NCBI GenBank assembly: GCA_016873115.1
Contig: VGYB01000026.1
Coordinates: 1-32,736 of the forward strand
Origin: Planctomycetota bacterium
GTDB lineage: Bacteria > Planctomycetota > Phycisphaerae > Phycisphaerales > SM1A02
Direction: 5' to 3'
DNA: 32,736 nucleotides
The stretch's first letter is position 1. The number at the start of each line of letters is the position of its first letter. Below, piece after piece: positions 2,289-29,370 of the stretch. A program made the translations under genes and the position numbers. The notes under the pieces are model-generated. The model was not told the DNA's origin. It did no database searches and saw only the letters and a list, made by a program, of their open reading frames with translations.

Positions 2289-2294
2289 AGGCTA
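2289..2294 (-). promoter_or_regulatory. -10 element (TAGCCT), likely leaderless kdsD
   Basis: TAGCCT on the minus strand ends 7 nt before the ATG at 2281, placing transcription start at or next to the start codon. No Shine-Dalgarno lies at the usual distance. Confidence 0.5.
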
Positions 2295-2326
2295 CCTCGG
2301 GCCTTCGTGGTTGGGCGTTCCTGCGC

Positions 2327-2332
2327 TACCCT
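2327..2332 (+). promoter_or_regulatory. -10 element (TACCCT), likely leaderless scpA
   Basis: TACCCT ends 7 nt before the scpA ATG at 2340. No Shine-Dalgarno is visible. A weak -35-like TTCGTG lies 17 nt upstream. Confidence 0.5.
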
Positions 2333-2339
2333 CCGTGCC

Positions 2340-3131
2340 ATGCCTCTTCAGGACGATTACGAGGTTCGGCTGGATGCCTTCCAAGGTCCCATGGACCTGT
2401 TGCTCTACCTGATCCGCCGTGCCGAGGTGGACATCAATGACATCCCGGTGGCGCAGATCGCCAACCAGTACTTCGCGTTCCTGAGGCAGCTTGGCCAGGT
2501 CGACATCGACCTGGCGGGCGAGTTCCTCGTGATGGCTGCCACGCTCGTCGAGATCAAGAGCCGCACGCTCGCCCCACGCGAGACGAGCGATGGCGAGGAT
2601 GCCGCCGTGGAGGGCCTTGACCCGACCGACCCGCGATTCGAACTCGTGCAGCAGCTCGTTGCCTACCAGCGGTTCCGCACGGCGGCGGACACGCTCGACC
2701 GGCTGCGTCGGGACTTTGCCAAGCGCCACCCCATCGGTGGCGTTGGGGCGGGCACCGAGCCGCAGGCCGCCGACGATGCGATCGAACTGGAGGATGCCCA
2801 CATCCTCGATCTCTTCGGTGCGTTCGAGCGCATCATGCAGTCGGTGGACATGACGCGCCTGGGTGACCACAAGGTCGAGTACGACGACACGCCGATCGGC
2901 CTGCACCAGGACGACATCATCGATCGGCTGGAGCGTGCCGAGGGCCGATCGCTGACCCTCCATGAGATCTTCCGTGGCCGGACCCGCGGCGAAGCCATCG
3001 GACTGTTTCTCGCGCTCCTCGAACTGGCGCGCAACCAGAGGGTGGCGGTCCGCCAGGAGCGCCCGGACGATGCCATCGAGATCGCCCTCGCTGCCGCGGC
3101 TCCCGAAGCCGCCGTGCCGCCGCAGGGTTGA
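2340..3131 (+). CDS. scpA: Segregation and condensation protein A
   Basis: A 263-aa kleisin. With Smc and ScpB it forms the bacterial condensin that organises and segregates the chromosome. The N-terminal Smc-binding signature FQGPMDLLLYLI is at about residues 13-24, followed by DINDIPVAQI and the FLVMAATLVEIKSRTLAP helix typical of the family. The C-terminal winged helix (about 190-255) contains a SLTLHEIF-like segment. Length is normal. The ATG at 2340 matches the family N-terminus; the longer open frame from 2307 adds 11 residues without family character. scpB and smc are not in the window. Its 3' end nearly abuts the convergent dacB gene (5 nt between stops), so the two transcripts probably overlap. 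Confidence 0.95.
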   Translation: MPLQDDYEVRLDAFQGPMDLLLYLIRRAEVDINDIPVAQIANQYFAFLRQLGQVDIDLAGEFLVMAATLVEIKSRTLAPRETSDGEDAAVEGLDPTDPRFELVQQLVAYQRFRTAADTLDRLRRDFAKRHPIGGVGAGTEPQAADDAIELEDAHILDLFGAFERIMQSVDMTRLGDHKVEYDDTPIGLHQDDIIDRLERAEGRSLTLHEIFRGRTRGEAIGLFLALLELARNQRVAVRQERPDDAIEIALAAAAPEAAVPPQG

Positions 3132-3136
3132 CGCCT

Positions 3137-4717
3137 TCATCCGCCAGGCTGGCGCGCGAGGATCGCGGCCACGGCGTCCTGCAGATCCTTGGCCTTGCTG
3201 ACCTCGCTTTCCTTGAGGTCGTTGCAGAGCACGCTCATCGCGAAGCGCCGCCCGTTCGTGCAGATCACGTAACCCGACAGGCAACTGGTCCCGGCGATGT
3301 AGCCGGTCTTGCACCAGACCTTGGCGAGCGAATCGGGAACTTCATCCATGCGCGTCTTGAGCGTGCCGCTGCTGCCGCCCTCGGCGAAGCTGCGCAGGTA
3401 GGCGTCGAAGTCCGGCAGCATGCGCGGCATGGCCAGCAGCCACCTGGTCATGCCCATGGCCGTGACCCGGTTCTCCTTGCTCATGCCGCTGCCGTCACGG
3501 ATCGCGAAGGACTCAACCTCGTTGCCGATCACGGCACGCAATGTGGTGCGCATCAGGTCCTGGCCATCGGCCCACGATCCCGCCCGGCCGGTGGCCTTGG
3601 CGGCCGCACGCTTGAGCAGTGCCTCGGCATACAGGTTCTCGCTGTCGGTGTTCGCCCGCGCGACAACGCTGGCCAAGGGAGTGCTCAGCGTCGGGCCGAC
3701 GGCGGTCCCGGTGGCTGGGGCATCGGCTGCGGTGGCGATGCGGACCGCCCCCACATCGATGCCGTTGGTACGCAGGCGCGAGGCAAGCAGGTGGCCCAGG
3801 AAGAGCGGGGGATCCTGCAAGGTGACGATGTATGGACCATCGGCCTTCGTCAGGTTGCCCCTGATGGCGTAGGCATCCGTGCCCTGCGCACGGGCGATGC
3901 CGGCAGACTGCTTGGCATCCTTGCCCTGCTTGGCGGTCGCATCGTTCACCACGGTGAGCCACGGTGCGGACGGCTGCGTGCGCCACGCGACCTTGCCATC
4001 CTTGGGGGTGAGCCAGAACCGCAGCGAGTTGAAGTGGAAGTTGATGCCCCAGCACGCCACGCAGTAGGTCGCATCGAGCTGGTCGCGAGGCCAGTCAGGG
4101 TGCGCGCCCTCGCGTGCGAAGATCCGGTCATCGACGATGACCTCGCGGATGCGCGGAATGCGCAGGCGCTCGACGGCACGCGCCCATTGGTCGATGAGCT
4201 GCTCGGGCGTGAGCCCCGTGTGCATGACGCCCTGGGCATCCTTCCACACCGTTCCTGACAGCAGTTCGGGATCACCAAGCGAAGGGTCGCCGTCGCCCAC
4301 GATCGTCAAGCGATCACCTGCCAGAAGGAGCTTCGTGCCGAAGGAGAATCCCTCGCCCAGCACCATCATCGCCATGCCCGTGCTGATCGCCTTCTGGTTG
4401 CTGGCCGGCCGCATCGGGCGCGAGCCGCCGAGATCGACGATCACGGCATCGCGGTCAAGATCGGCCACGACGGCGGTGACCTTCGGACCCAACCCGCTCG
4501 TGGCGATCGCCGCGCTGATCCGCTTGGTGATCGCAGCATCGATCGACTTGGTGGCTGCTGCGGTCGACTGGGTCTTCGTGGCGACGGCAGGGGGCTGCGG
4601 CCAGGCGGAATTGCGTGCGCTGGCACGCTGGCCGGCTGGCAGGAGCAGGGCCGCGGAGGTGCCGATGAGCGCCACGACCGCGACCGTCGCCCATCCGTGG
4701 CGAAGGTCCAACTTCAT
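3137..4717 (-). CDS. dacB: D-alanyl-D-alanine carboxypeptidase/endopeptidase, PBP4 (peptidase S13) family
   Basis: A 526-aa exported penicillin-binding protein that trims D-Ala or cleaves cross-links in peptidoglycan in the periplasm. All three serine-hydrolase motifs are visible: SNQK (S106-K109), SEN (359-361) and KTG (470-472), with the large insertion after the first motif that marks the PBP4/S13 family (GDGDPSLGD within it). The N-terminus has a hydrophobic export segment (about 9-30). The ATG at 4717 was preferred to one 10 codons earlier because it starts the signal sequence and has TACACT 8 nt upstream. The gene follows tsf on the same strand but a strong terminator separates them. 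It supports the presence of a peptidoglycan wall in this organism. Confidence 0.93.
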   Translation of the reverse strand: MKLDLRHGWATVAVVALIGTSAALLLPAGQRASARNSAWPQPPAVATKTQSTAAATKSIDAAITKRISAAIATSGLGPKVTAVVADLDRDAVIVDLGGSRPMRPASNQKAISTGMAMMVLGEGFSFGTKLLLAGDRLTIVGDGDPSLGDPELLSGTVWKDAQGVMHTGLTPEQLIDQWARAVERLRIPRIREVIVDDRIFAREGAHPDWPRDQLDATYCVACWGINFHFNSLRFWLTPKDGKVAWRTQPSAPWLTVVNDATAKQGKDAKQSAGIARAQGTDAYAIRGNLTKADGPYIVTLQDPPLFLGHLLASRLRTNGIDVGAVRIATAADAPATGTAVGPTLSTPLASVVARANTDSENLYAEALLKRAAAKATGRAGSWADGQDLMRTTLRAVIGNEVESFAIRDGSGMSKENRVTAMGMTRWLLAMPRMLPDFDAYLRSFAEGGSSGTLKTRMDEVPDSLAKVWCKTGYIAGTSCLSGYVICTNGRRFAMSVLCNDLKESEVSKAKDLQDAVAAILARQPGG

Positions 4718-4725
4718 GGGGGCGG

Positions 4726-4731
4726 AGTGTA
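4726..4731 (-). promoter_or_regulatory. -10 element (TACACT), likely leaderless dacB
   Basis: TACACT on the minus strand ends 8 nt before the dacB ATG at 4717. No Shine-Dalgarno precedes that ATG. The hexamer lies downstream of the tsf terminator. Confidence 0.5.
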
Positions 4732-4750
4732 CGGAGCCGCGGCGCAAAAG

Positions 4751-4784
4751 CGAGTCGAGGCGCCCCGAAGGACGCCTCGACTCG
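4751..4784 (-). terminator. Rho-independent terminator of rpsB-tsf
   Basis: A perfect 12-bp stem (CGAGTCGAGGCG / CGCCTCGACTCG) with a 10-nt loop is followed on the minus strand by CTTTTGCG. It lies about 41 nt beyond the tsf stop and before the dacB promoter. Confidence 0.8.
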
Positions 4785-4825
4785 ATTCCGATCGCGTCGG
4801 ATGGATCAGGGCGGGCCGGCCCGGC

Positions 4826-5632
4826 TCAACTGCCGCCGACAACCATGCGACGGAATCCCGTCAGCGTGGTGCCCGCGGGCAGCAGGTCCTTGATCTTCTT
4901 CTTCTCGTCGAAGACGAACGCCTGGCCAAGGAGCGTGACTTCCTCGAACCACTTGCGCATCTTGCCTTCGGCCATCTTCTCGGCGATCTGGGCCGGCTTG
5001 CCGCTGGCGGTCGCCTCAGCGGTGGCCTCGGCGCGCTTCTGCGCAAGTTGGTCGGCGGGGAGGCCGGTCTGGTCGATCGCCTGCGGGGTCACGGGCGAGG
5101 CCACGATGTGCTGGCAGATCGCGGCGCCGGTCTCGGCATCGAGGGTTCCGGTGTACTCCAGGAGCGCGCCCTGCTTGTGGTCATGGTGCAGGTATGAGGC
5201 GTAGGACTTGCCCGACATGACCTGGCCGCGCGCGAACTGGACATTCTCGCCGGTCTTGAGGCGAACATCATCCACGCGCGCGATGATTGCGGCGGTGGCG
5301 GTGACGGTACCGGCAGCCGCTTCGAGGGCCATCGTCGCGACATCGGCCGCCATCGCGCGGAACTCCGCGTTCTTGGCGGTGAAGTCGGTCTCGCTGCGGA
5401 TCTCGACGATGGCGATCTTGCCGTTGCCTGTCGCGATGGACAGGCAGCCTTCGCCGGCCGGGCGATCGGTGCGGCCATCCATCTTGTCCTTCATGCGCTC
5501 GCGCAGGAGTTTCTCGGCGGCATCGAAGTCGCCATGGGCCTCGACGAGGGCATCCTTGCAGGCACCCATGCCAAGTCCGGTCTTCTGGCGCAGCTTCAAC
5601 ACGGTCTTGGGATCGATGGCGGCGGTGCTCAT
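4826..5632 (-). CDS. tsf: Translation elongation factor Ts
   Basis: A 268-aa nucleotide-exchange factor for EF-Tu. The N-terminal UBA-like domain (about residues 8-45) has the family pattern VLKLRQKTGLGMGACKDAL. The core carries SETDFTAKNAEF (about 79-90), matching the conserved TDF(V/T)A-N motif that contacts EF-Tu, followed by the dimerisation-type helical region. The C-terminus ends in a basic segment. Length is close to E. coli EF-Ts (283 aa). The ATG at 5632 is preceded by GGAG 7 nt upstream. It lies 32 nt downstream of rpsB on the same strand, the usual rpsB-tsf order, and ends in a strong terminator. Confidence 0.97.
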   Translation of the reverse strand: MSTAAIDPKTVLKLRQKTGLGMGACKDALVEAHGDFDAAEKLLRERMKDKMDGRTDRPAGEGCLSIATGNGKIAIVEIRSETDFTAKNAEFRAMAADVATMALEAAAGTVTATAAIIARVDDVRLKTGENVQFARGQVMSGKSYASYLHHDHKQGALLEYTGTLDAETGAAICQHIVASPVTPQAIDQTGLPADQLAQKRAEATAEATASGKPAQIAEKMAEGKMRKWFEEVTLLGQAFVFDEKKKIKDLLPAGTTLTGFRRMVVGGS

Positions 5633-5664
5633 GGTGGTGCTCCGTGGGTGTGCTGATGGAGGAC

Positions 5665-6486
5665 TCAGGCGCCGGCTGCGGGCGTTGCCGCTGCGCCGTG
5701 TCCGTCATCCATGCGGAAGCGGCTGCGTGCGCTGCGGCGGCGCGGGGCCTGGGCATCGACCTCGGCGGCGGGTGCATCACCTTCCGCGGCCGCCGGTGCC
5801 GACGCGCGGTTGCCCTTGCCTTCGGTGGCGGCGGCGCACAGCTCGCGTACGACGATGTCGATCGAGCGCATGCTGTCGTCGTTGCCCGGGATCGGGATGT
5901 CGGCCAGGTCGGGATTGCCATCGGTGTCGATGAGGCAGATCGTCGGGATGCCGAGGTTCTTGGCTTCGCGGAGCGCGTTGATCTCGCGCTGCGTGTCGAT
6001 CACGACGAGCGCGCCGGGCAGGCGGGTCATCGAACGCAGCCCGTTGAGGTTGCGGTAGATCTTCTTGTGTTCGCGGGCGAGCTGCGCTTCCATCTTCTTG
6101 GAATAGTTCTTGATTTCGCCGCTCTCGACCAGGCGCTCAAGCTCCTCCAGTCGCTTCAGGCGCTCACGCACGGTGCGGAAGTTCGTGAGCGTGCCGCCGA
6201 GCCAGCGCTCGGTCACATAGGGCATGCCGGAGGCACTACAGTGGGTTTCGATTGCCGCGCGTGCCTGGCGCTTGGTGCCGACGAAGACGACATCCTTGTT
6301 CTCCGACACGCACTTCGCGATGAACTTCTTCGCGAGCAGGATCCCCTTGATGGTTTCCTTGATGTCGATGATGTGGATCTGGTTCTTGGTCCCGTGGATG
6401 TACGGGCCCATCTTCGGGTTCCAGTTGCTGCGACGCTGGCCGAAGTGGATGCCTGCTTCGATGAGTTCGTTGACGAGCGATGACAT
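5665..6486 (-). CDS. rpsB: 30S ribosomal protein S2
   Basis: A 273-aa S2 protein of the small ribosomal subunit. Family signatures are clear: ELIEAGIHFGQRRSNWNPKM near residues 7-26, FVGTKRQA at about 68-75, RWLGGTLTNF at about 94-103, and PGALVVIDTQREINALREA followed by IPTICLIDTD. The C-terminal tail (about residues 225-273) is an Ala/Pro/Arg-rich extension beyond the E. coli protein (241 aa). The ATG at 6486 has AAAGGA 7 nt upstream, so the in-frame extension toward 6546 is rejected. It is cotranscribed with tsf. The 267 bp upstream are non-coding; a leader for autoregulation, known for rpsB in other bacteria, is possible but I did not recognise a specific fold. Confidence 0.97.
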   Translation of the reverse strand: MSSLVNELIEAGIHFGQRRSNWNPKMGPYIHGTKNQIHIIDIKETIKGILLAKKFIAKCVSENKDVVFVGTKRQARAAIETHCSASGMPYVTERWLGGTLTNFRTVRERLKRLEELERLVESGEIKNYSKKMEAQLAREHKKIYRNLNGLRSMTRLPGALVVIDTQREINALREAKNLGIPTICLIDTDGNPDLADIPIPGNDDSMRSIDIVVRELCAAATEGKGNRASAPAAAEGDAPAAEVDAQAPRRRSARSRFRMDDGHGAAATPAAGA

Positions 6487-6675
6487 GGACGATTCCTTTC
6501 GAACAGCGACACCGGCGGCCTGGCGCGATGGTCGCCTTGCCGCCACAAGGGCGCTTCGGGGGTGGGCGGACTGCCCAACGAGGCGGTTGCGTTCGCCGCG
6601 CGCCCATCGTGCGCACCGCGCTGTCGCGAGCAGGGGAGGACGCGTGTCCGCCGTCCCACCCGGGCCAGAGGGGGG

Positions 6676-6681
6676 AGGCTA
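6676..6681 (-). promoter_or_regulatory. Possible -10 element for rpsB-tsf
   Basis: TAGCCT on the minus strand is the best TANNNT hexamer upstream of rpsB. It would give a leader of about 180 nt. No clear -35. Confidence 0.25.
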
Positions 6682-6739
6682 CCGGGACCGCGGTGCCGCG
6701 GCAAGCATCGCGGCGGCGGTTTATGGCCGCAATGGCCGA

Positions 6740-6745
6740 TAGGAT
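6740..6745 (+). promoter_or_regulatory. -10 element (TAGGAT), likely leaderless phosphohexomutase mRNA
   Basis: TAGGAT ends 8 nt before the ATG at 6754. The AGGA inside it could alternatively act as a weak, rather distant ribosome-binding site, so this case is ambiguous. Confidence 0.45.
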
Positions 6746-6753
6746 CTGCCTTC

Positions 6754-9626: not shown

Positions 9627-9696
9627 TCAGCACATGGTGCATCGATCCGCCGTCCCGGCCGGTCGACTCCCTCGGTCGCCCGGTCTCCAGTCCGGT

Positions 9697-10548: not shown

Positions 10549-10552
10549 GGCG

Positions 10553-10753: not shown

Positions 10754-10759
10754 CCCACC

Positions 10760-10766
10760 TATCCTA
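10760..10766. promoter_or_regulatory. Overlapping divergent -10 elements for thiS and the lipoprotein gene
   Basis: The heptamer TATCCTA reads TATCCT (10760-10765) on plus, 6 nt before the GTG at 10772, and TAGGAT (10761-10766) on minus, 7 nt before the thiS ATG at 10753. One site can therefore serve both directions. No TPP riboswitch can fit here. Confidence 0.55.
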
Positions 10767-10771
10767 GTGCC

Positions 10772-11539
10772 GTGCGACACGCCTCCATCATGCTCATCTC
10801 GTGTGTCATGCTCGCCGGCTGCAGCAAGCCGGCGATCGACACCAGCACCCCAGACGCCCTGCTCGAGGCGGTCCGGGTCGCGGTCGAGGATGGCCGTCCC
10901 GAGATCCTGCCCGATCTCATCGATGTCCCCGTGCGTGAGGTCGAGTTCGACGACGGCGTGACCGAGGCGAGCGCCGTGGAGGATGTGCGGGGCAAGCTCA
11001 AGGAGATGCTGGCCCAGCTCTGGCGCGTCACGGTCAAGCTGCGCAACCGATTCCCGGGGCAGGTCTCCAAGGAACTCGTGGCCGCGCAGTCCGAACTCGT
11101 TCCCAAGGACTTCCGCGAGGGCTTCGCACGGTTCTTCGCTGACCCCTTCGGCGAGTTGCAGCGCGAGCGCGCGAACCTGAAGGCAGAAGACCTTGGCGAT
11201 GGCACGGCGGCGCTGCTCTGGAAGGACGAGCCGCTCTGGGGCGGTGTGATCGCGATCGAGGAACGCCCGGGCGGCTGGCGGTTCGTGGTGCCGGTCGATC
11301 TCCTGCGATCGAACGAGTACTTCCCCGACACGCGCGAAGAGTGGGCGATCCTGGCGAGCATGATGCTGGGCATCGAGAACTCGCTCTCGGACTTCGAACG
11401 CGAACTCGACGAGGGAAAGTTCCGCGACCTCAAGGCCGCGAGCACCCGGGTCGGTCGCCTCGTGGGTGAGAGCGTGATCGTGCAGAGCGTGATCTACGCC
11501 ATGATGAAGCGCGACGACACGACCGACGCGACCAACTGA
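10772..11539 (+). CDS. Predicted lipoprotein of unknown function
   Basis: A 255-aa protein with a lipoprotein signal: MRHASIMLISCVMLAGC, with lipobox LAGC and Cys at residue 17. The GTG at 10772 is chosen because it keeps the basic n-region and lies 6 nt after TATCCT; an ATG at 10790 would leave too short a signal. The mature part is helical and charged, with no transmembrane segment and no motif I recognise. A central stretch (GTAALLWKDEPLWGGVIAIEERPGGWRFVVP) looks like paired beta strands, as in proteins that assess or bind a ligand, and the beginning (TPDALLEAVRVAVEDGRPEILPDLI) resembles periplasmic helical repeats. It shares a divergent promoter region with thiS but nothing ties it to thiamine. 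Confidence 0.8.
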   Translation: MRHASIMLISCVMLAGCSKPAIDTSTPDALLEAVRVAVEDGRPEILPDLIDVPVREVEFDDGVTEASAVEDVRGKLKEMLAQLWRVTVKLRNRFPGQVSKELVAAQSELVPKDFREGFARFFADPFGELQRERANLKAEDLGDGTAALLWKDEPLWGGVIAIEERPGGWRFVVPVDLLRSNEYFPDTREEWAILASMMLGIENSLSDFERELDEGKFRDLKAASTRVGRLVGESVIVQSVIYAMMKRDDTTDATN

Positions 11540-11590
11540 GCCCGAGCGTGGCGAGGGGTTCCGCAGGAAGGTCCGCGTGGCTCGAAGGAG

Positions 11591-13057: not shown

Positions 13058-13063
13058 AGGATA
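13058..13063 (-). promoter_or_regulatory. -10 element (TATCCT), likely leaderless antiporter gene
   Basis: TATCCT on the minus strand ends 6 nt before the ATG at 13051. No Shine-Dalgarno is present. Confidence 0.5.
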
Positions 13064-13089: not shown

Positions 13090-13095
13090 TAGGCT
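13090..13095 (+). promoter_or_regulatory. -10 element (TAGGCT), likely leaderless NHL operon
   Basis: TAGGCT ends 6 nt before the ATG at 13102; its first three bases also form an in-frame TAG stop, so the protein cannot start further upstream in this frame. Confidence 0.5.
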
Positions 13096-16768: not shown

Positions 16769-16797
16769 TTGATCCGTTGTCCGACTTGGGGTATGTT
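16769..16797 (+). promoter_or_regulatory. Promoter of the choice-of-anchor B gene
   Basis: TTGATC (16769-16774), a 17-nt spacer and TATGTT (16792-16797) match the sigma-70 -35/-10 pattern at 4/6 each. The leader would be about 28 nt and includes AAGGAG at 16821-16826. Confidence 0.5.
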
Positions 16798-16831
16798 TCG
16801 TCTGACGCTGCCCGATCACCAAGGAGATCCC

Positions 16832-19075
16832 ATGCGCACTTCCACGACGGCGACCCTCGTTGCTTGCAGCCTGCTCTCTGGCGTGGTGCTGACCGCGCTG
16901 GCCCATGAGGACGATGGCAAGGTCCGCGATCGTGAGCCGGCGGTCATCGCGCCGGCTTGGCGCGCGGCCGACGGCGGACTTGCTGGCGACGACTTCGCCT
17001 CGAGTGGCATCCTGCTGAAGGCCTGGTTCCCCCTCGCGTCGATCGATTCGGGCGCGACGAGCGGCAACGACTGCTGGGGCTATGTCAGTCCCTCGGGCCG
17101 CGAGTACGCCATCATGTGCGTGAGCAACGGCACCGCGGTGTATGAGGTGACCAACCCCGCTGCGCCGGTGAAGCTCGGCTTCATCCCGGGTGCGCAGAGC
17201 CTCTGGCGCGACGCGAAGGTCTTCGGGAACCGCGCGTATGTCGTCACCGAGGGTGGCGTGGGCATCCAGACGATCAACCTGTCGAATGTTGACGGCGGAT
17301 CGATCTCGCTCGAGAGCACGGTCACCGCAGGGTCGGGCGGTCTGGCAACCCACAATGTCGCGCTCAACACGCAGAGCGGCTACCTGTACCGCTGCGGCGG
17401 CGGGTCGAGTGGCCTGCGCATCTACAACCTGAACGTGACCCCGGGCTCGCCCCAGTATGTGGGTGAGTGGGCGGCCTACTACGTCCACGATGCCCAGGTC
17501 GTGACCTACACCAGCGGACCCTACGCCGGCAAGGAGATCGCCTTCTGCTGCGCCGGACTCAACGGCGGGAATGTCGAGACCGGCCTGTATGTGGTCGATG
17601 TCACCAACAAGTCGGCGCCTGTGCTCCTGAGCCGGATCCTCTATCCCAACGCGCGGTACAGCCACCAAGGCTGGCTCACGGAAGACCGGAAGTACTTCCT
17701 GCTCGGTGACGAGCTCGATGAGGGGGCCACCCAGCCGCTCACCACGACCTATGTCATCGATGTGCAGAATCTCGCATCGCTGATCTACCGGGGGCAGTTC
17801 GGAAACAGCACGCCGGCCATCACGCACAACTGCTACACGCACCAAGGGAAGATGTTCGCGGCCAATTACCGCAGCGGGCTCCGAGTCTTCGATGTGAGCA
17901 ACGCCGGCACTCCGTCGACCGTGACGGAAATCGCGTACTTCGATACCTACCCCGGATCGGACGCGCCGCAGTTCAACGGCCTGTGGTCCTGCTATCCGTA
18001 CCTGCCCAGCGGCACGATCATCGGCAGCGACCTCGAGCGTGGCATGTTCGTCCTCCGCCTCGGGGAAGTGGGCGTTCAGCTTTCGTTCCCGGGCGGTGCT
18101 CCCGAAATCGTCTCGCCCGCCGGGCAGACGGTCACCTTCGATGCCGTGGTGCAGCCAGGCGTCACCGTGACCAACAAGCGCTTCTACTACAACACGCCGA
18201 GCGGTACACAGGCACTGCCGGTCATCGAGGTGGATTCCGATACGTTCTCGGCGGCGTTGCCCGCGGTCGCCTGTGGAAGCGCGGTTGGCTTTGCGATCGA
18301 GTTCACGACGGCGACGGAGATGTACCGCCTCCCGTCCACCGGGTTCCTGCCGGCCACGGCGGCCTTCGGGGTGGCGACCGGGTTCACCGATGAGATGGAG
18401 ATCAACCAGGGCTGGACGGTCGGTGGTACCGGCGATACGGCCACCGCAGGCATCTGGCTCCGGGCCGACCCGGTCGGCACCACGGCGCAGCCAGAGGATG
18501 ACCACACCGTCAACGGCGTGAATTGCTGGATCACCGGCAATGGCGTCGTCGGTGGCGGTGTCGGTGCGGCCGACATCGACGGTGGCCAGACCTCGCTGAC
18601 CTCGCCGGTCTTCGATGCGACGATCGTCGACACGCCGTACATCAATTACTGGCGGTGGTACTCGAACAATGCCGGTGCGGCTCCCAACGAGGACAGCATG
18701 CCGGTCGAGATTTCCAACAACGGAGGCTCAACATGGTCCCAGTTGGAACTCGTGACGGAGAACGCTGGCATGTGGGTCCAGAAGACCTTCCGCATCGCGG
18801 ATGTCGTGTCACCCACATCAACCATGCGGATCCGCTTCCGCGCAAGCGACCTTTTCAGTGGCTCGGTCGTCGAAGCCGGCGTCGATGATGTCAGGCTCTA
18901 TGGGTATGACTGCACTGCACCGCGCCCGGGCGACCTGAACGGCGACGGCGTCGTGGATGGTGCCGACCTGGCGGTGCTCCTGGGCAACTGGGGCGGTTCG
19001 AGTGCTGGCGACATCGATGGCAACGGGATCATCGATGGGGCGGACCTGGGCCTGCTCGTCGCCGACTGGGGTTGA
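16832..19075 (+). CDS. Secreted choice-of-anchor B/LVIVD-type protein with dockerin-like C-terminal repeats
   Basis: A 747-aa exported protein. The ATG at 16832 has a strong AAGGAG 5 nt upstream and starts a signal peptide (about 1-25, ending LTALA). Residues about 60-430 show LVIVD-type repeats of the choice-of-anchor B family (WGYVSPSGREYAIMCV, WRDAKVFGNRAYVV, GLRVFDVSNAGTPS). A middle beta-rich region (about 430-695) includes a jelly-roll-like part (INYWRWYSNNAG, VEISNNGGSTWSQLE). The C-terminus has two calcium-loop-like repeats: GDLNGDGVVDGADLAVLLGNWG and GDIDGNGIIDGADLGLLVADWG. These resemble type I dockerins; in Phycisphaerae-type proteomes such tails are common and their partner is not established. 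A weak hairpin follows the stop. Confidence 0.88.
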   Translation: MRTSTTATLVACSLLSGVVLTALAHEDDGKVRDREPAVIAPAWRAADGGLAGDDFASSGILLKAWFPLASIDSGATSGNDCWGYVSPSGREYAIMCVSNGTAVYEVTNPAAPVKLGFIPGAQSLWRDAKVFGNRAYVVTEGGVGIQTINLSNVDGGSISLESTVTAGSGGLATHNVALNTQSGYLYRCGGGSSGLRIYNLNVTPGSPQYVGEWAAYYVHDAQVVTYTSGPYAGKEIAFCCAGLNGGNVETGLYVVDVTNKSAPVLLSRILYPNARYSHQGWLTEDRKYFLLGDELDEGATQPLTTTYVIDVQNLASLIYRGQFGNSTPAITHNCYTHQGKMFAANYRSGLRVFDVSNAGTPSTVTEIAYFDTYPGSDAPQFNGLWSCYPYLPSGTIIGSDLERGMFVLRLGEVGVQLSFPGGAPEIVSPAGQTVTFDAVVQPGVTVTNKRFYYNTPSGTQALPVIEVDSDTFSAALPAVACGSAVGFAIEFTTATEMYRLPSTGFLPATAAFGVATGFTDEMEINQGWTVGGTGDTATAGIWLRADPVGTTAQPEDDHTVNGVNCWITGNGVVGGGVGAADIDGGQTSLTSPVFDATIVDTPYINYWRWYSNNAGAAPNEDSMPVEISNNGGSTWSQLELVTENAGMWVQKTFRIADVVSPTSTMRIRFRASDLFSGSVVEAGVDDVRLYGYDCTAPRPGDLNGDGVVDGADLAVLLGNWGGSSAGDIDGNGIIDGADLGLLVADWG

Positions 19076-19140: not shown

Positions 19141-19146
19141 TACACT
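19141..19146 (+). promoter_or_regulatory. -10 element (TACACT), likely leaderless FGE-like gene
   Basis: TACACT ends 7 nt before the ATG at 19154, with no Shine-Dalgarno. A TTCACG at 19119-19124 could be a weak -35 (16-nt spacer). Confidence 0.5.
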
Positions 19147-19153
19147 CAAGCGC

Positions 19154-21268: not shown

Positions 21269-21271
21269 CGA

Positions 21272-21298
21272 CAGCAGACCCCGTGCTCAGGGGTGCTG
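21272..21298. terminator. Convergent hairpin between the Gfo/Idh and apbE genes
   Basis: CAGC-(AG)-ACCCC pairs with GGGGT-GCTG around a 7-nt loop, giving 9 bp with a 2-nt bulge. It spans the apbE stop codon. There is no U-tract on either strand, so terminator function is uncertain. Confidence 0.35.
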
Positions 21299-22345: not shown

Positions 22346-22432
22346 GAGCGGGAGGGTGCCGGGCCGATCATCGGCAGTGCCGTGGCGCACGCCCCGGCCG
22401 ATCACGCGTCCGCGCCCGTGCCCAGGCATCGC

Positions 22433-24157: not shown

Positions 24158-25383
24158 GCGCGGCCACCCCGACGGGGGTTGCGTCCGCTCGGGCCGGCGG
24201 GTTCCCGGTGGGGCGCACTCTCGGTGACCACGCGCTCCTGGCCGGTGGCGGCATCCGCCAGCGACTGCACGGAGCCCGGATCGGGGTCGTGCCGTGCAAA
24301 GACCAGTCTCCCGGCCGCGGTCTGGAGCGTGTTCGTGACCGCGGCCCAGATGTCCTGACCGATCAGGTGCTGCGCATCCTCGACGACGACCATCGTTCCG
24401 TCCTCGAGCCAGCCGACCGCCTGTTGGCGCTGCTCACCTGCCTTCTCGAGATGCACGCGAAGGCGCTCGCCACTCGCGCCCGTGCCACGCATCGAGGTAG
24501 CGAGGTCGTTCAGGTTGATGCTCGCCACGCCCCGGATCTGTGCGACCTTGTGCAGCCCCGCATCGGTCGTCAGGATCCGGCCGCCGTCGCGCTGCGCTGC
24601 CTCGATCAAGGCCGCATCAACGCCGCCGCCGTCCGGCGTGCGCGTGCCGTCGATCTGGACCTCGACGAGCAGCACATTCTGGAGCCGCGTGAGGGTGTCG
24701 AGGCCGCGCCGCCCGCGTGCGCGCTTGCCGCGATCGTCGCTGTCCGAGAGCGTCTGCAACTCATCCATCACGAAGCCCGGCACGATGATCGGCGCATCCA
24801 TGAGCCGTGACGAGGCCAGGTCCAGGACACGGCCGTCGATGAGGGCGCTCGTGTCGAGCAGGTACGGCTGCTCGCCGCGTCGCTGCTTGCTGAACTCGAT
24901 GTAGGGGATGACCAGCCGGAAGTCATCCTTCGTGGTGATGACCATGCTCACCGACAGGTAGCACAGGGTCAGGCCGAGGGTCATCTTCGCCAGGCCGAGG
25001 TAGAGCGCACCCGGACCTTCCTTGCCCAGTTCCCATGAGTCCGCGATCGTGTCGAGCAGCGAGCCGAAGGACAGTGCGGCGACCAGACCCAGGCAGAGTC
25101 CGAAATAGACCGCCGCCACGCTCGTGATGCGCTTGTTGGGGGTCAGCGCATCGAGCACCAGCACCAGCAGGCCGAAGCCGCCGGCGGCCACGATGATGCC
25201 CACGACGGTCGCGAAGGAGAACTCGTTCGCCTTCGATGTGCTGGCCAAGGTCAGCATCACGCTGACGACCAGGAGCACCACGAAGAGCAGGCGAGTCGCC
25301 AGCAGCACGGGCGACGATCGCTCACGGCGTGGCGCAGGGGCCACAGGGCGGTTAGCAGCGTCCATGTCCGATCCCGGCTCCAT
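24154..25383 (-). CDS. PIN/TRAM domain membrane protein (YacL-like)
   Basis: A 409-aa protein with four hydrophobic segments in the first 150 residues, then a PIN ribonuclease-type domain (about 174-295) and a TRAM domain (about 305-365). The PIN core shows YLLDTSALIDGRVLDL (from 174), PGFVMDELQTLSD, and ILTTDAGLHKVAQIRGVASINLNDL, so the acidic residues are kept. Such proteins are widespread; B. subtilis YacL is the best-known relative and its precise function is unclear. The ATG at 25383 has TACACT 6 nt upstream; an ATG six codons later is possible. The gene is divergent from ffs and heads the operon with the HD-GYP and apbE genes. Confidence 0.9.
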   Translation of the reverse strand: MEPGSDMDAANRPVAPAPRRERSSPVLLATRLLFVVLLVVSVMLTLASTSKANEFSFATVVGIIVAAGGFGLLVLVLDALTPNKRITSVAAVYFGLCLGLVAALSFGSLLDTIADSWELGKEGPGALYLGLAKMTLGLTLCYLSVSMVITTKDDFRLVIPYIEFSKQRRGEQPYLLDTSALIDGRVLDLASSRLMDAPIIVPGFVMDELQTLSDSDDRGKRARGRRGLDTLTRLQNVLLVEVQIDGTRTPDGGGVDAALIEAAQRDGGRILTTDAGLHKVAQIRGVASINLNDLATSMRGTGASGERLRVHLEKAGEQRQQAVGWLEDGTMVVVEDAQHLIGQDIWAAVTNTLQTAAGRLVFARHDPDPGSVQSLADAATGQERVVTESAPHREPAGPSGRNPRRGGRA

Positions 25384-25389
25384 GGTTGG

Positions 25390-25395
25390 AGTGTA
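25390..25395 (-). promoter_or_regulatory. -10 element (TACACT), likely leaderless PIN-TRAM operon
   Basis: TACACT on the minus strand ends 6 nt before the ATG at 25383, with no Shine-Dalgarno between. The same hexamer occurs before dacB and the FGE-like gene. Confidence 0.5.
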
Positions 25396-25415
25396 CGGGG
25401 GCGTGGTGGGGTCGC

Positions 25416-25421
25416 TACCAT
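25416..25421 (+). promoter_or_regulatory. -10 element of the SRP RNA gene
   Basis: TACCAT ends 7 nt before the first paired base of the SRP RNA (25429), which is the expected position for its transcription start. No clear -35. Confidence 0.55.
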
Positions 25422-25428
25422 TTGGCTC

Positions 25429-25552
25429 GGTGTCGCCGAGGACGGCCGGGCCCGAGGGACGGGCGTCCCGTGAACCTGGTCAGGGCTTGACGGCAGCAGC
25501 CATAAGCGAAGGCGTTCGGGCCTTCGGCAACCTGGCCGTCCTCGGCGACACC
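25429..25552 (+). ncRNA. ffs: Signal recognition particle RNA (4.5S-type)
   Basis: About 124 nt, closed by a perfect 19-bp terminal helix (25429-25447 with 25534-25552). The apex carries the Ffh-binding box: GTGAACCTGGTCAGG on one side and GCAGCAGCCATAAGC on the other, matching the conserved GGTCAGG...AGCAGCC core. The apical tetraloop is TGAC (URRC class) rather than the common GGAA. Both loop classes are known to be functional. Position directly upstream of dnaX-recR is common in bacteria. The 59 nt between this RNA and the dnaX GTG contain no TANNNT hexamer, so dnaX may be read through from this promoter. No Alu-domain sequence is evident. The exact ends are estimated from the helix. Confidence 0.88.
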
Positions 25553-25611
25553 CACCGGAACCAGCCGCGCGACGTGCGCGGCACCGGAGCACCGCGCACG
25601 AGGGCACGACC

Positions 25612-26772
25612 GTGGCAAGGAAGGCGAGAAGCGAGCAGGAGGCGCCGGCCGCCGGCGGATCAGGCTATGTCGTCCTGGCGCGTCGCTACCGCAGCCGCGA
25701 CTTCGGCGAGGTGGTGGGGCAGGAGCCGATCGCCCGGACCCTGCAGAACGCGATCCGGCTCGGGCGCACCGCCCACGCGTACCTCTTCTGCGGCACCCGC
25801 GGCGTCGGCAAGACCAGCATGGCGCGCATCTTCGCCCGCGCGCTGAACGCGACCGAACAGCTCACCGAGCGCACCCAGATCGAGGAAGCGATCATGCGGG
25901 GCCAGGACATGGATGTCATCGAGATCGACGGCGCGAGCAATCGCGGCGTCGACGACGCGCGTGACCTGATCGCTGGTGCAGGCATCGCGCCCACGCGCAG
26001 CCCGTACAAGATCTACATCATCGACGAAGTCCACATGCTGACGCAGCCGGCATTCAACGCGCTGCTCAAGACCATGGAGGAGCCGCCGTCGCACGTGAAG
26101 TTCATCCTCTGCACGACCGAGCCGCACAAGGTGCCGGCCACGATCCAGAGCCGTTGCCAGCGCTTCGACTTCCGCAACATCAGCGTCCAGCGGATCGCCG
26201 GGCACCTCAACGATGTCCTCGCCAAGGAGGGCATCGCCGCGGACGAGGCTGTGGTGCTCCAGGTGGCACGGCTGGCCAACGGCTCCATGCGCGATGGCTT
26301 GAGCCTGCTCGACCGCCTGGCGGCGGCCAGCGATGGTGCGCTCACGCACGATGTGGCACGCGATGTGCTCGGCCTGCCCGATGACGAGGCGCTCGACGCC
26401 ATCGTGCGTGCAATCGCAGGGGGCGACGCTGCTGGCGCGATCGGTGCGGGCGGTGCGCTGATCGAGCGTGGATTCAGCGCTGACCATGCGCTCGAGTGCC
26501 TGGCGGCACGGCTCCGCGATGTGATGGTCGTTGGAGCGTGCGGTCCCCAGACGGAGATGGTCGAGCTGCCGAGCGAGGCCAAGGAACAACTCGCCGAGTT
26601 GGCACGCTCGATGCAGGGTGCCGACCTCGTGCACGCGATCGCGCTCGCGGACGCCGCGAGTCGGACCTGTCGCAGCAGCTCGATCCCGCGCGTGGTCTTC
26701 GATGCACTCCTTGCGCGACTCGCGCTGGCGGAGCGATTCGGGTCGACGGGAGCGGCGCCGCCAAAAAAATGA
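25612..26772 (+). CDS. dnaX: DNA polymerase III gamma subunit (zero-frame product of dnaX)
   Basis: A 386-aa clamp-loader ATPase. Motifs: LARRYRSRDFGEVVGQE, Walker A GTRGVGKT (61-68), DVIEIDGASNRGVDDARDLI, Walker B IIDEVH (136-141), and the sensor 1/SRC region LCTTEPHKVPATIQSRCQRF (166-185). Domain III follows to about residue 375. The four cysteines of the usual zinc module between Walker A and DVIEID are absent: the segment ATEQLTERTQIEEAIMRGQDM (79-100) is shorter and has none. The GTG at 25612 has GAGGG upstream. The frame ends at a TGA immediately after an A7 run, where a -1 shift would continue to 27182 and give tau. The short product resembles E. coli gamma. Confidence 0.95.
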   Translation: MARKARSEQEAPAAGGSGYVVLARRYRSRDFGEVVGQEPIARTLQNAIRLGRTAHAYLFCGTRGVGKTSMARIFARALNATEQLTERTQIEEAIMRGQDMDVIEIDGASNRGVDDARDLIAGAGIAPTRSPYKIYIIDEVHMLTQPAFNALLKTMEEPPSHVKFILCTTEPHKVPATIQSRCQRFDFRNISVQRIAGHLNDVLAKEGIAADEAVVLQVARLANGSMRDGLSLLDRLAAASDGALTHDVARDVLGLPDDEALDAIVRAIAGGDAAGAIGAGGALIERGFSADHALECLAARLRDVMVVGACGPQTEMVELPSEAKEQLAELARSMQGADLVHAIALADAASRTCRSSSIPRVVFDALLARLALAERFGSTGAAPPKK

Positions 26773-26809
26773 CGGCGGCAGTGCCCGCGGCCGAGGCCCG
26801 CGCGCTGCC
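26748..26809 (+). promoter_or_regulatory. Predicted programmed -1 frameshift site in dnaX
   Basis: Three elements are lined up as in E. coli dnaX. A Shine-Dalgarno-like GGGAG (26748-26752) lies 10 nt upstream of the slippery site. The heptamer A AAA AAA (26763-26769) is in the correct zero-frame register (CCA AAA AAA TGA). A hairpin starts 7 nt downstream: GGCAGTGC (26777-26784) pairs with GCGCTGCC (26802-26809), one G-U pair. The zero-frame stop TGA follows the heptamer directly. Transcriptional slippage on A7 could also contribute. Confidence 0.8.
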
Positions 26810-27182
26810 GACTGCCACGCCTCGACCGGTCGCAACGCGTGCAGCGCCAGCGCCAGATGCGGTCGCGCAGCCTGCGCGGATCACTGCTCCGCGTGCGCCG
26901 GATGCGCCGCGCCATGTCGACGCCGTGCATCCGCCTGCCGACCGCATGTCGCCAACGCCTTCGCCGCTTGCTGCCGAGCGCGGTGACCAGTCGCGCGCGG
27001 AGGCTTCCGATGGCCCTGCCGTCGTGCGCAATGCCGCGGGTCGAGCCATCGATCCGGCCGTTGCCGATCGCTTGCGCGCCGAACCGCTCGTACGGCAGGT
27101 GACCGACATCCTCGACGCACCGGTGCAACGCGTGGTGCCGCGGCGCGCTCGTCCCGCACCGGCGCAGGACGAGGGGGAGTGA
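26769..27182 (+). CDS. dnaX: Tau-specific C-terminal extension of dnaX (-1 frame)
   Basis: Reading on in the -1 frame from the slippery site gives 137 further residues, for a tau of about 523 aa. The first part (to about residue 95) is an Ala/Pro-rich linker. The end, EPLVRQVTDILDAPVQRVVPR, resembles the conserved C-terminal piece found in other bacterial DnaX proteins. This frame stays open to TGA at 27180-27182, 3 nt before recR. An alternative is a separate coupled gene, since ATG at 26769-26771 overlaps the dnaX stop (ATGA). I favour tau because of the frameshift signals and the DnaX-like tail; a sequencing error in the A-run is a further possibility. Confidence 0.75.
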   Translation: MTAAVPAAEARALPTATPRPVATRAAPAPDAVAQPARITAPRAPDAPRHVDAVHPPADRMSPTPSPLAAERGDQSRAEASDGPAVVRNAAGRAIDPAVADRLRAEPLVRQVTDILDAPVQRVVPRRARPAPAQDEGE

Positions 27183-27185
27183 TCG

Positions 27186-27821
27186 ATGCTCGAGCCGACC
27201 AAGGGGCCGTATCCCGAGAGCGTGAACCGACTGGTCGCGGAGTTCGCGAACCTGCCGGGCATCGGCCGTCGGACCGCGGAGCGCCTCGCCTTCTGGGTGC
27301 TCAAGGCCGATGCGGGGCAGGCGCTCGGCCTGGCGCAGGCGATCGAGGATGTCAAGCGCACGGTGCGTCACTGCAGCATCTGCTGGAACCTGGCCGACAG
27401 CGACCCGTGCGCGATGTGCTCCGATCCGCAGCGGGACCAGTCGGTCGTGCTCGTCGTCGAGCAGCCCAAGGACCTGATCAGCCTCGAGTCGACCGGTCGC
27501 CACCGCGGCGCCTATCACGTGCTCATGGGACGGCTGGACCCGCTCGATGGCGTGGGTCCCGATGCCCTCACCATCGCCGACCTCGTGTCGCGCGTGAAAG
27601 ATCCCGCGCGCAACGCCCGTGGCGTGGCGGTGCGTGAAGTCATCCTGGGCCTGAACCCCGACCTCGAGGGCGACAGCACGGGGCTGTTCGTCGCGCAGGC
27701 ACTTGAAGGGACTGGCGTCGCCGTGAGCCGCCTCGCGCGCGGATTGCCGAGTGGTTCGCACATCGAGTTCGCCAATCGTGCCGCGCTCGCGGATGCGATC
27801 AGCCACCGGCAGCGGCTCTGA
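27186..27821 (+). CDS. recR: Recombination mediator protein RecR
   Basis: A 211-aa protein that works with RecF and RecO to load RecA at gaps. The N-terminal helix-hairpin-helix reads LPGIGRRTAERLAFWVL (about 23-39). A four-cysteine zinc finger follows (HCSICWNLADSDPCAMC, about 62-78). The Toprim domain (about 85-180) begins VLVVEQPKDLISLE and includes the family-typical segment VREVILGLNPDLEGDSTGLFVA. A C-terminal Walker B-like region ends the protein. The ATG at 27186 is preceded by GAGGGGGAG, which lies inside the end of the dnaX -1 frame, so translation is closely linked to tau. rpoN follows after 3 nt. Confidence 0.97.
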   Translation: MLEPTKGPYPESVNRLVAEFANLPGIGRRTAERLAFWVLKADAGQALGLAQAIEDVKRTVRHCSICWNLADSDPCAMCSDPQRDQSVVLVVEQPKDLISLESTGRHRGAYHVLMGRLDPLDGVGPDALTIADLVSRVKDPARNARGVAVREVILGLNPDLEGDSTGLFVAQALEGTGVAVSRLARGLPSGSHIEFANRAALADAISHRQRL

Positions 27822-27824
27822 ACG

Positions 27825-29351
27825 ATGTCAGGGATGGGCTTCAACCTCTCGCAAGGCGCTCGACTCGGGCAGAACCTGAAGCTCTCACCCCGCATGCTCA
27901 CGACCATGAGCGTGTTGCAGCTGCCCTTGGGCGAGCTCGAGGAGCGCGTCGAGCAGGAACTGCAGGAGAACATCGCGCTCGAGCGCACCGAGCCCGACGG
28001 TTCGTCGATGGATCCTGTCGATGCCCGCGCGGATGGCCAGGAGGCTGGGGATGGCGCCGATGATCGCGCGCTCATCGTTGAGGACGGCGGTGCGGCGGAC
28101 TTCGACAGGCTCGATCGCTTCGAGCGCCGCTACGGCGAGGATCTCGACAGCGATTCGTGGCGCGAGTCGCGTCGGCTCGACGGCGAGCCCGATGGACGCA
28201 GCGAGGCCATGGCCAACACGCCGGCGCGCACGGCGAGCCTCGAGGAACAGCTCCTCGAGCAGTGGATGCTCGTCGATGCCAGCCCGCGCATGATGGCGAT
28301 CGGGCGCGTGCTGGCAGGTTTCGTCGGTGATGACGGGCTGCTGCACACGCCCATCGAGTCGATCGCGGCGGCCGCCGCGCCGGTCGTCGATCCTCCGGCG
28401 ACTCTGGCCGAGGTCCGCGAGGCGTCCCGGCTGTTCCAACTCCTGCTCGAGCCGCCGGGCATGGGTGCGCCGGATGTGCGCGAGAGCCTGCTCTCCCAGC
28501 TCGATGTCATGCGCGGCCGCCTGGGCGAGCATGACCGGGCTTGGCATGATGCGCGTCTGCTCATCGAGCACTACCTCGATGACCTCGAGGCGAACCGGAT
28601 CCCTCGCATTCAGGAGCGGACGGGCATGACCACTGCCCAACTCGATGCAGCGCGTTCCATGCTGCAGCTCCTGGATCCATCGCCAGCGTCCGGCCTCACC
28701 TCGCGGCCGGTGCCGGGGATCCGTCCCGATGTGATCGTGACCCACGACGCCGCGAGCGATCGTTGGAGCGCGCACCTGGCCGATGGCAGCGAGCCGAGCG
28801 TGCGGCTGGCCGAGGAGTATGTGCGCATGAGCCGTGACCCCAAGGTCGACAAGGCCACGCGTGATCTCATCAAGGCCAACATGCAGCGAGGCAAGTGGTT
28901 CATCGAGGCGCTGGGCCAGCGCGGCGTGACGCTGCTGCGCGTGGTCGAGCGCGTGCTCGATCGCCAGCGCGGCTGGTTCGAGTTCGGCCCGGGCCACCTG
29001 AAGCCGCTCCCGATGGTCGAGGTCGCCGCCGACATCGGCATGAACGTGAGCACGGTCAGTCGCGCCGTGGCGGGAAAGTGGCTCCAGACGCCGCGCGGCG
29101 TCGTCGAACTTCGCAGGTTCTTCACCGGCGGCACGCACACCGAGCAGGGGGCCGTGTCATGGGATGCGATCAAGGAGCGCCTGCGCGAGGTGGTCGCTGC
29201 CGAGGACCGTGCGAAGCCGCTGTCGGATGAGGCGATCGCCAAGGCCCTCAAGGCCGAGGGGATCACGCTGGCGCGCCGCACGGTGGTCAAGTACCGCGAG
29301 CAGCTGGGGATCCCTCCGGCACGCCTGCGTCGGGCGCATCCGGCTACCTGA
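27825..29351 (+). CDS. rpoN: RNA polymerase sigma-54 factor
   Basis: A 508-aa alternative sigma factor. Region I (FNLSQGARLGQNLKLSPRMLTTMSVLQLP, about 6-34) binds activators and core polymerase. Acidic region II follows (about 55-130). The core-binding domain and the helix-turn-helix (VEVAADIGMNVSTVSRAVAGKWLQTPRGVVELRRFF, about 396-431) are intact, and the RpoN box is ARRTVVKYRE (about 484-493), with V for the common A at one position, in contact with the -24 element. Length is near the usual 480-510. The ATG at 27825 lies 3 nt after the recR stop. No sigma-54-dependent activator is encoded in the window. Confidence 0.96.
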   Translation: MSGMGFNLSQGARLGQNLKLSPRMLTTMSVLQLPLGELEERVEQELQENIALERTEPDGSSMDPVDARADGQEAGDGADDRALIVEDGGAADFDRLDRFERRYGEDLDSDSWRESRRLDGEPDGRSEAMANTPARTASLEEQLLEQWMLVDASPRMMAIGRVLAGFVGDDGLLHTPIESIAAAAAPVVDPPATLAEVREASRLFQLLLEPPGMGAPDVRESLLSQLDVMRGRLGEHDRAWHDARLLIEHYLDDLEANRIPRIQERTGMTTAQLDAARSMLQLLDPSPASGLTSRPVPGIRPDVIVTHDAASDRWSAHLADGSEPSVRLAEEYVRMSRDPKVDKATRDLIKANMQRGKWFIEALGQRGVTLLRVVERVLDRQRGWFEFGPGHLKPLPMVEVAADIGMNVSTVSRAVAGKWLQTPRGVVELRRFFTGGTHTEQGAVSWDAIKERLREVVAAEDRAKPLSDEAIAKALKAEGITLARRTVVKYREQLGIPPARLRRAHPAT

Positions 29352-29356
29352 ATCGA

Positions 29357-29362
29357 TAGCCT
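29357..29362 (+). promoter_or_regulatory. -10 element (TAGCCT), likely leaderless ilvE
   Basis: TAGCCT ends 8 nt before the ilvE ATG at 29371, just after the rpoN stop. No Shine-Dalgarno is present. Confidence 0.5.
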
Positions 29363-29370
29363 CTCTCCAC

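Follow-up and report, generated by a model that had tools for sequence, protein, structure and literature searches.

In the planctomycete genome that contains the stretch of DNA analysed here, about half of the genes that lead a transcript seem, from their upstream sequences, to begin transcription at the start codon, driven by a six-letter box of the form TANNNT. The stretch, hereafter the window, comprises the 32,736 nucleotides (nt) of contig VGYB01000026.1 (C26; guanine-plus-cytosine (GC) content 67.7%) and belongs to a 2.36-Mb genome that is 95.9% complete in 87 contigs. Among named genomes, the closest relatives by ilvE come from a Planctomycetota metagenome-assembled genome (MAG; 95%) and, next by rank, from MAGs with the titles Phycisphaera (73%) and Phycisphaerales, on which the order name used below is based. 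We interpret the boxes as bare -10 elements that would give rise to leaderless mRNAs, next to leadered mRNAs made from a -35 and a -10 element together, with the hexamer purged elsewhere, and we give this reading as a whole a probability of roughly 0.9.

Eleven TANNNT boxes 6-8 nt before start codons had been named for the window in an earlier note, and all of them were found again by direct reading and by their coordinates. On the minus strand they precede kdsD (TAGCCT, 2289-2294; spacer of 7 nt to the start at 2281; Pfam SIS and CBS; posterior 0.99 in the mixture model described below), dacB (TACACT, 4726-4731; spacer 8, start 4717; Peptidase_S13; 0.99), thiS (TAGGAT, 10761-10766; spacer 7, start 10753; ThiS), an antiporter gene (TATCCT, 13058-13063; spacer 6, start 13051; CitMHS_2; 0.88) and the gene of a PIN-domain protein (TACACT, 25390-25395; spacer 6, start 25383; PIN; 0.97). 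On the plus strand they precede scpA (TACCCT, 2327-2332; spacer 7, start 2340; SMC_ScpA; 1.00), a phosphohexomutase gene (TAGGAT, 6740-6745; spacer 8, start 6754; PGM_PMM; 0.69), a lipoprotein gene (TATCCT, 10760-10765; spacer 6, GTG start at 10772), the genes of an NHL-repeat protein (TAGGCT, 13090-13095; spacer 6, start 13102; NHL; 1.00) and an FGE-like protein (TACACT, 19141-19146; spacer 7, start 19154; FGE-sulfatase; 1.00), and ilvE (TAGCCT, 29357-29362; spacer 8, start 29371; branched-chain aminotransferase models; 0.99). Pfam scans assigned a family to nine of the ten window genes scanned; the lipoprotein gene matched none. Eight of the nine box genes evaluated by the model exceeded 0.8, the phosphohexomutase gene being the weakest; the starts of thiS and the lipoprotein gene stand outside the model and were checked by eye, that of thiS also by Pfam. 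The chance of such a box per gene is about 1.4% (three spacers, learned upstream composition, product formed by hand), close enough to the 1% estimated earlier to call that estimate fair. Its occurrence in 11 of about 26 genes corresponds to a binomial p of about 3e-14, a post hoc figure for which a genome sample provides the independent test.

This sample consisted of the window and 20 stretches of 20 kb on 20 contigs (L003-L022), together 433 kb or 18% of the genome; 20 of the 21 stretches lie on contigs other than that of the window. Genes were called by a codon model blind to upstream signals, with starts picked on coding score. Of 383 genes called, 360 entered a mixture model, the remainder having no neighbour, an incomplete upstream stretch or an incomplete start. 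The model considers alternative starts for each gene, assigns it to a box class, a Shine-Dalgarno (SD) class or a class with no signal, and is compared with five shuffles as null; a posterior above 0.8 was taken as a high-confidence box call. Genes were divided into divergent (n=124), far (following a same-strand gene at more than 30 nt, n=109) and near (following one at 30 nt or less, n=127).

With starts set by coding score only, 33 of the 124 divergent genes carry a box at spacer 5-9, compared to 2.7 expected from other positions. The box weight in the mixture model was 0.52 for divergent, 0.30 for far and 0.19 for near genes, and 0.005-0.044 in the five shuffles, with 1-2% for the divergent genes. 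High-confidence calls comprised 58 divergent, 28 far and 18 near genes, in total 104 of 360 (95% confidence interval 24-34%). The earlier note had named a lack of TANNNT enrichment at -12 to -14 over the genome as a finding that would refute its claim; on the sample, this check gave a strongly positive result. Its statement that most unit-leading genes carry the box holds for the window and shrinks to about half of the divergent genes in the sample. Its placement of the box at unit heads agrees with the box weights, highest in divergent genes, by which box genes are mostly the first genes of transcription units, but near genes carry some too. Among these is ilvE, which starts 19 nt behind a same-strand gene, and five of the 18 near genes with a box overlap the upstream gene; such boxes are internal promoters in apparent operons. 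The reverse motif TNNNAT was dropped as a control, since boxes such as TAGGAT fit both motifs (8 of 124 divergent genes match), and was replaced by the positional and shuffle controls.

The learned box reads T, A, C or G, A or C, C or A, T. Its spacer distribution in the model, like that of TANNNT ahead of the coding-score starts, peaks at 6 (0.43 in the model), followed by 7 (0.25), with a tail to 12; among 97 leaderless boxes, 44 have a spacer of 6, 23 of 7 and 30 of 8-12. With a canonical distance from -10 to +1, a spacer of 6-7 would place the transcription start on the start codon or one base ahead of it. A gauge for this distance is offered by the signal recognition particle (SRP) RNA gene of the window (25429-25552, plus strand; Rfam core 25444-25540), the ends of which were set by the outer helix GGTGTCGCCGAGG / CCTCGGCGACACC. 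As had been observed before and is confirmed by coordinates and the Rfam match, its -10 box TACCAT (25416-25421, plus strand) lies 7 nt 5' of the helix strand GGTGTCGCCGAGG at 25429, and this box-to-helix distance suggests a calibration of the transcription start point. The outer helix extends past the span of the Rfam match, and the promoters of the SRP RNA and the PIN-domain gene are arranged head-to-head. SRP RNA promoters at 60 loci in relatives were inspected; a TANNNT box lies within 45 nt in some of them and is absent in others. They were left uncounted, and the set is unused as evidence for this reason and because the Rfam end differs from the RNA end.

Comparison with a genome of the same genus (G003; 79-88% DNA identity over matching pieces) showed T, A and T of the hexamer kept in 12 of 12 boxes, that of the SRP RNA included, whereas the distance from the box to the start codon, or to the start of the RNA, was more variable. 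In the SRP RNA gene itself, box and RNA start are kept and the spacer between them is changed. Upstream of ilvE, TAGGCT is found at spacer 6-7 in eight of eight genus relatives, G003 among them; in other genera the upstream regions are mixed, some with an SD in place of the box. The box is also oriented: tandem intergenic regions hold 71 TANNNT in sense versus 12 in antisense direction (4.2 versus 0.7 per kb), divergent ones 46 and 47 on the two strands (4.4 and 4.5 per kb) and convergent ones four and two (1.0 and 0.5 per kb).

Boxes far upstream of genes differ from leaderless boxes in their -35 region. We counted at least four matches to TTGACA at a spacing of 16-18 nt as a -35 element. For 58 leadered-class boxes, located 13-200 nt upstream and drawn from 121 genes with a box posterior below 0.2 and any SD score, 16 had a -35 element versus 4.8 in shuffles (0 of 200 shuffles as high), and four control positions gave 1-7. 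At leaderless boxes no -35 signal was detected (10 of 97 versus 7.2 in shuffles, p 0.19; control positions 4-7), and the two groups differ (Fisher p 0.007). An extended -10 (TGn) showed no enrichment. A leadered promoter within the window is TTGATC-17-TATGTT (16769-16797, plus strand), followed by the SD AAGGAG (16821-16826) and a gene start at 16832 (model posterior for SD 0.85). TANNNT is very probably a promoter element, because it precedes the SRP RNA, is conserved in the sister species, is joined by a -35 when far upstream and is depleted in coding DNA.

Genes with a box mostly lack an SD, as stated earlier. SD-like sequences were found in three of 33 divergent genes with a box versus 36 of 91 without, and, among all genes, in four of 104 with a box posterior above 0.8 versus 139 of 226 below 0.2 (backgrounds farther upstream 11 and 26), although this scarcity is partly mechanical, because a box at spacer 6-9 occupies part of the SD region and both signals enter the model. 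ATG is the start codon of 95 of 104 leaderless genes versus 154 of 196 SD-led genes (p 0.006). All SD fractions are approximate, given how loosely the model defines its SD class. The 16S rRNA 3' end GGATCACCTCCTTTCT has an intact anti-SD CCUCC; an altered anti-SD, as expected from a loss of SD-based initiation, was not seen at this end, and SD initiation is therefore retained.

Depletion of the hexamer is pronounced throughout the sample. Both strands together contain 411 TANNNT, 98 of them at a high-confidence leaderless start, and the density is 2.96 per kb and strand in intergenic versus 0.26 in genic DNA. Coding DNA was analysed in 353 gene interiors of the genome, trimmed by 45 and 48 nt, with synonymous shuffles in place of a whole-contig dinucleotide shuffle, which was too crude for coding DNA. 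When synonymous codons were shuffled, 151 TANNNT were seen versus about 1,430 expected (ratio 0.10-0.11 on both strands); the control TANNNA was also low (0.36 and 0.43), so part of the depletion stems from TA steps being scarce in general. A stricter shuffle, which keeps the protein, the codon use and every dinucleotide and moves only 24% of the codons, takes out this part and gave 0.42 for TANNNT on each strand and 1.11 for sense-strand TANNNA. Among motifs of the form xyN(1-5)z with at least 60 expected occurrences, TANNNT was the lowest, followed by a gap-1 motif at 0.71; the next gap-3 motif had 0.85, and with gaps of 4 and 5 no motif fell below 0.95. By codon phase, the TANNNT ratio was 0.32, 0.37 and a weak 0.79 on the sense strand and 0.55, 0.54 and 0.33 on the antisense strand. 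The depletion fits selection against unwanted transcription starts, a cause that we infer and that has also been put forward for mycobacteria (PMC10653884) and for many bacteria (PMC1939733); the promoter use of a given hexamer showed no link to its depletion (rho 0.22, p 0.21, 34 hexamers).

We propose that the housekeeping sigma-70 holoenzyme uses TANNNT as its -10 element; the genome encodes RpoD with regions 1.1, 1.2, 2, 3 and 4. Placed 6-7 nt before a start codon and without a -35, the hexamer would direct transcription from the first base of that codon or 1 nt before it, and the resulting leaderless mRNAs would be recognised by ribosomes through their 5' AUG or GUG rather than an SD. Leadered mRNAs would be made from a -35 (TTG at 16-17 nt) and a -10 and then be translated from an SD with the intact anti-SD. 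As the bare hexamer would suffice to start a transcript, it would have been purged, on both strands, from genes and from other DNA outside promoters. It would thereby come close to punctuating the genome wherever a transcript starts, and permit very short head-to-head intergenic regions.

The spread of the box was surveyed with a fixed generic model and the box weights of divergent genes; single-genome weights are rough, because samples other than that of the genome itself hold few divergent genes (14-40). Weights were 0.53 and 0.51 within the genus and 0.50, 0.30, 0.26, 0.18, 0.16 and 0.08 in six other genera of the family, the last value belonging to a genome (G020) with a null of 0.10 for divergent genes, but with a weight of 0.35 for far genes (null 0.06). 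In five further genomes of the order, the weights were 0.39, 0.24, 0.13 (far 0.25), 0.05 and 0.03. Outside the order, weights were 0.20 (null 0.04), 0.20 (null 0.11), 0.09 (null 0.20) and 0.07 (null 0.08) in four genomes of the class and 0.35 (null 0.06, n=14), 0.18 (null 0.08), 0.09 (null 0.03) and 0.03 (null 0.06) in four of the phylum. As controls with 12 divergent genes each, plasmid stretches of D. deserti and D. radiodurans gave 0.65 (null 0.08) and 0.49 (null 0.09); T. thermophilus had 0.29 (null 0.18) for divergent and 0.57 (null 0.04) for far genes. Other controls were E. coli with 0.17 (null 0.15), Cupriavidus with 0.15 (null 0.13) and Sinorhizobium with 0.09 (null 0.17).

Ranked among 64 gap-3 motifs, TANNNT was the most depleted in 13 of 13 genomes of the order (0.43-0.89, the genome studied here being lowest). 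Its ranks were 3, 17, 23 and 39 in the four genomes of the class outside the order (0.93-1.01) and 1, 1, 3 and 3 in the four of the phylum (0.72, 0.93, 0.95, 0.96). Among the controls, D. deserti (0.81) and Rhodococcus (0.75) had it at rank 1 and T. thermophilus (0.81) and Cupriavidus (0.94) at rank 3, whereas it came to rank 6 in Sinorhizobium (0.96), 11 in E. coli (0.97) and 33 in D. radiodurans MP1 (1.00). A second set of named loci was hand-picked by title and length (47 of 80; at least one fitting locus, L151, was overlooked) and reduced to 46 by the loss of one of ten Planctomycetia on coverage. Here the ratio was 0.78 with rank 1 in Phycisphaerales (13 loci, single loci mostly 0.57-1.00), 0.97 with rank 4 in other Phycisphaerae, 0.91 with rank 1 in Planctomycetia and 0.98 with rank 5 in Verrucomicrobiota.

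Several observations weigh against the reading of TANNNT as a leaderless promoter system. Gene starts come from our own finder and some are misplaced; in the window, thiS was missed and the start of the lipoprotein gene was wrong. The SD component of the model assigns 5-18% in shuffles, and the SD depletion of box genes is in part the mechanical effect described above. The box-weight controls are small, and Rhodococcus failed as a positive control (50-kb stretch; 0.12, null 0.06). Leaderless use and depletion track each other uncleanly across genomes. Spacers of 9-12 in 22 of 97 boxes would correspond to leaders of about 3-6 nt, and it is conceivable that the promoters are real but produce very short leaders (1-6 nt) or staggered starts, so that the mRNAs are near-leaderless. 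The span of spacers from 6 to 12, with nearly a third at 8 or more, speaks for this possibility, which we consider doubtful though of real weight: two thirds of the spacers are 6 or 7, and, if the distance is canonical, as the SRP RNA suggests, +1 falls at the start codon or one base ahead of it. The depletion in turn might have nothing to do with promoters and follow instead from high GC and a bias in codon context. Across 25 samples, its junction-shuffle ratio correlates better with GC (rho -0.51, p 0.009) than with leaderless weight (rho -0.33, p 0.10), and for the 21 planctomycete samples the values are -0.58 and -0.47; GC is thus at least as good a predictor of the depletion as leaderless weight, and leaderless use is no more than a possible cause of it. 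One genome of the phylum (G109; L283-L287) shows its strongest gap-3 depletion for TANNNT (0.72) but has few leaderless genes (0.09, null 0.03), so that the two can come apart. Such a by-product is nevertheless unlikely, given a shuffle that keeps protein, codon use and dinucleotides, the far milder values of other motifs at gaps 3, 4 and 5, the effect on both strands, and two genomes of similar GC (G017 and G042) with milder ratios (0.73 and 0.98).

Two further explanations concern the box itself. The hexamer could act in translation rather than as a promoter, as an A/T-rich patch ahead of the start that is unstructured or binds S1; an AT-rich bias near -10 can reflect S1 binding, and the accessible part of PMC5397173 leaves the choice between the two undecided for some phyla. 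A patch of this kind would hardly precede the non-coding SRP RNA, be strand-specific in tandem intergenic DNA, be joined by a -35 when far from the start or be strongly depleted in coding DNA only at gap 3 and on both strands, and we regard it as very improbable. A selected coincidence of one 33-kb stretch is less credible still and is refuted by the genome sample: unit heads were perhaps chosen partly by their box (ilvE), and the share called 'most' lies above the sample average, but the same signal appears in a sample drawn almost entirely from other contigs with starts chosen without the box. The leaderless interpretation of the earlier note is supported by enrichment, SRP RNA, conservation, -35 contrast and depletion, with its wording on unit heads and 'most' corrected as described and the start point itself inferred.

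Compact divergent pairs illustrate the arrangement. Among 61 such pairs, both members are leaderless in 18, one in 22 and none in 21, with median gaps of 48.5, 108.5 and 217 nt, respectively. In the window, thiS (minus strand, 10753) and the lipoprotein gene (plus strand, 10772) start 18 nt apart, and the symmetric TATCCTA at 10760-10766, kept in G003, supplies a box on both strands, the two boxes sharing 5 bp. A symmetric TANNNTA is flanked by CAY/RTG in four of ten occurrences in the sample versus 10 of 466, 1 of 159 and 4 of 126 for controls. A general claim of shared boxes was dropped, as only the window case and possibly one in L013 lie between convincing divergent starts. For a broader proposal the odds appear to us about even: leaderless expression in Phycisphaerales would have arisen independently of that in Deinococcota and Actinobacteria, bare TANNNT would be a complete promoter with the -35 used only for leadered genes, the purge would extend over the order, and in this genus the hexamer would be close to a start mark, allowing back-to-back firing from 20-60 bp or from one symmetric box.

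Two other features of the window were recorded. The open reading frame (ORF) of dnaX (NCBIfam gamma/tau; 25612-26772) ends in CCAAAAAAATGA (26762-26772), and an ORF in the -1 frame (26496-27182) runs on; this end looks like a programmed frameshift or slippage site that might give a long and a short DnaX. Positions 1-314, at the contig end, consist of 5.6 tandem copies of a 56-bp GC-rich unit with 97% matches.

If these predictions hold, a planctomycete lineage joins those groups in which leaderless expression reaches the level of Deinococcus. The rank of TANNNT among other motifs by depletion in coding DNA would be a sequence-only signature that may find such lineages without RNA data, G109 being an exception. 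For many of these genes, a start annotated by its SD is likely to be wrong. Since one and the same genome holds leadered genes with a -35 and leaderless genes without one, the system could serve to test what lets sigma fire from a -10 alone.

What is predicted here is a widespread leaderless system of a known kind, whose promoter hexamer is strongly depleted in coding DNA. We found no description of leaderless genes for Phycisphaerales in a search of mostly open-access literature; the domain-wide figure S7 of PMC12340547 may include the phylum. In the accessible text of Zheng et al. 2011 (PMC3160421), TANNNT leaderless genes are reported at about 20% for Actinobacteria and about 40% for Deinococcus-Thermus and in 207 of 953 genomes, in agreement with what the earlier note says of Deinococcus and Actinobacteria, and planctomycetes are not on the list given there. 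According to the part available of PMC5397173, Planctomycetes, represented by one species, are among the groups with a base bias that could mean leaderless mRNA and/or S1. For D. radiodurans, a -10 alone is described as sufficient, most such genes having no classical -35 (PMC12340547), and leaderless genes with a -10 motif make up about 30% of the ORFs on average in Deinococcota (PMC12340547, PMC3160421, both as far as accessible). Our genome resembles Deinococcota in having TANNNT a few nt before the ORF, mostly without a -35, and SD-type genes alongside, here with 104 of 360 genes; it differs in belonging to another phylum, in being known from sequence alone and in its stronger TANNNT depletion (0.43, compared to 0.81 in D. 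deserti, 0.81 in T. thermophilus and 1.00 in D. radiodurans MP1; 50-kb plasmid stretches).

The accessible part of PMC10653884 describes -10-only promoters in mycobacteria, where leaderless mRNAs account for up to a quarter of the total, TANNNT is scarce in each of the three coding frames and recoding with added TANNNT gives rise to intragenic starts. TANNNT is similarly rare in all frames of coding DNA here, one phase being weak (0.79); unlike that study, as far as its text is accessible, the present analysis concerns a planctomycete, finds the depletion on both strands and relative to other spaced motifs, and detects a -35 for leadered genes. Froula and Francino (2007, PMC1939733) reported -10 hexamers to be under-represented in the coding DNA of 24 of 42 genomes and, for nonfunctional DNA, linked the extent to growth rate and the number of tRNA genes. 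The accessible text contains neither 'Planctomycet' nor 'Deinococcus', and the study differs from our case, in which the depletion is strong in a genome rich in leaderless genes. Bidirectional promoters with a pseudo-symmetric sequence are likewise known (PMC12825309, accessible part). The symmetric TATCCTA at 10760-10766, if it fires in both directions, would be of that type, unlike the promoters described there in that both transcripts would be leaderless mRNAs of genes 18 nt apart.

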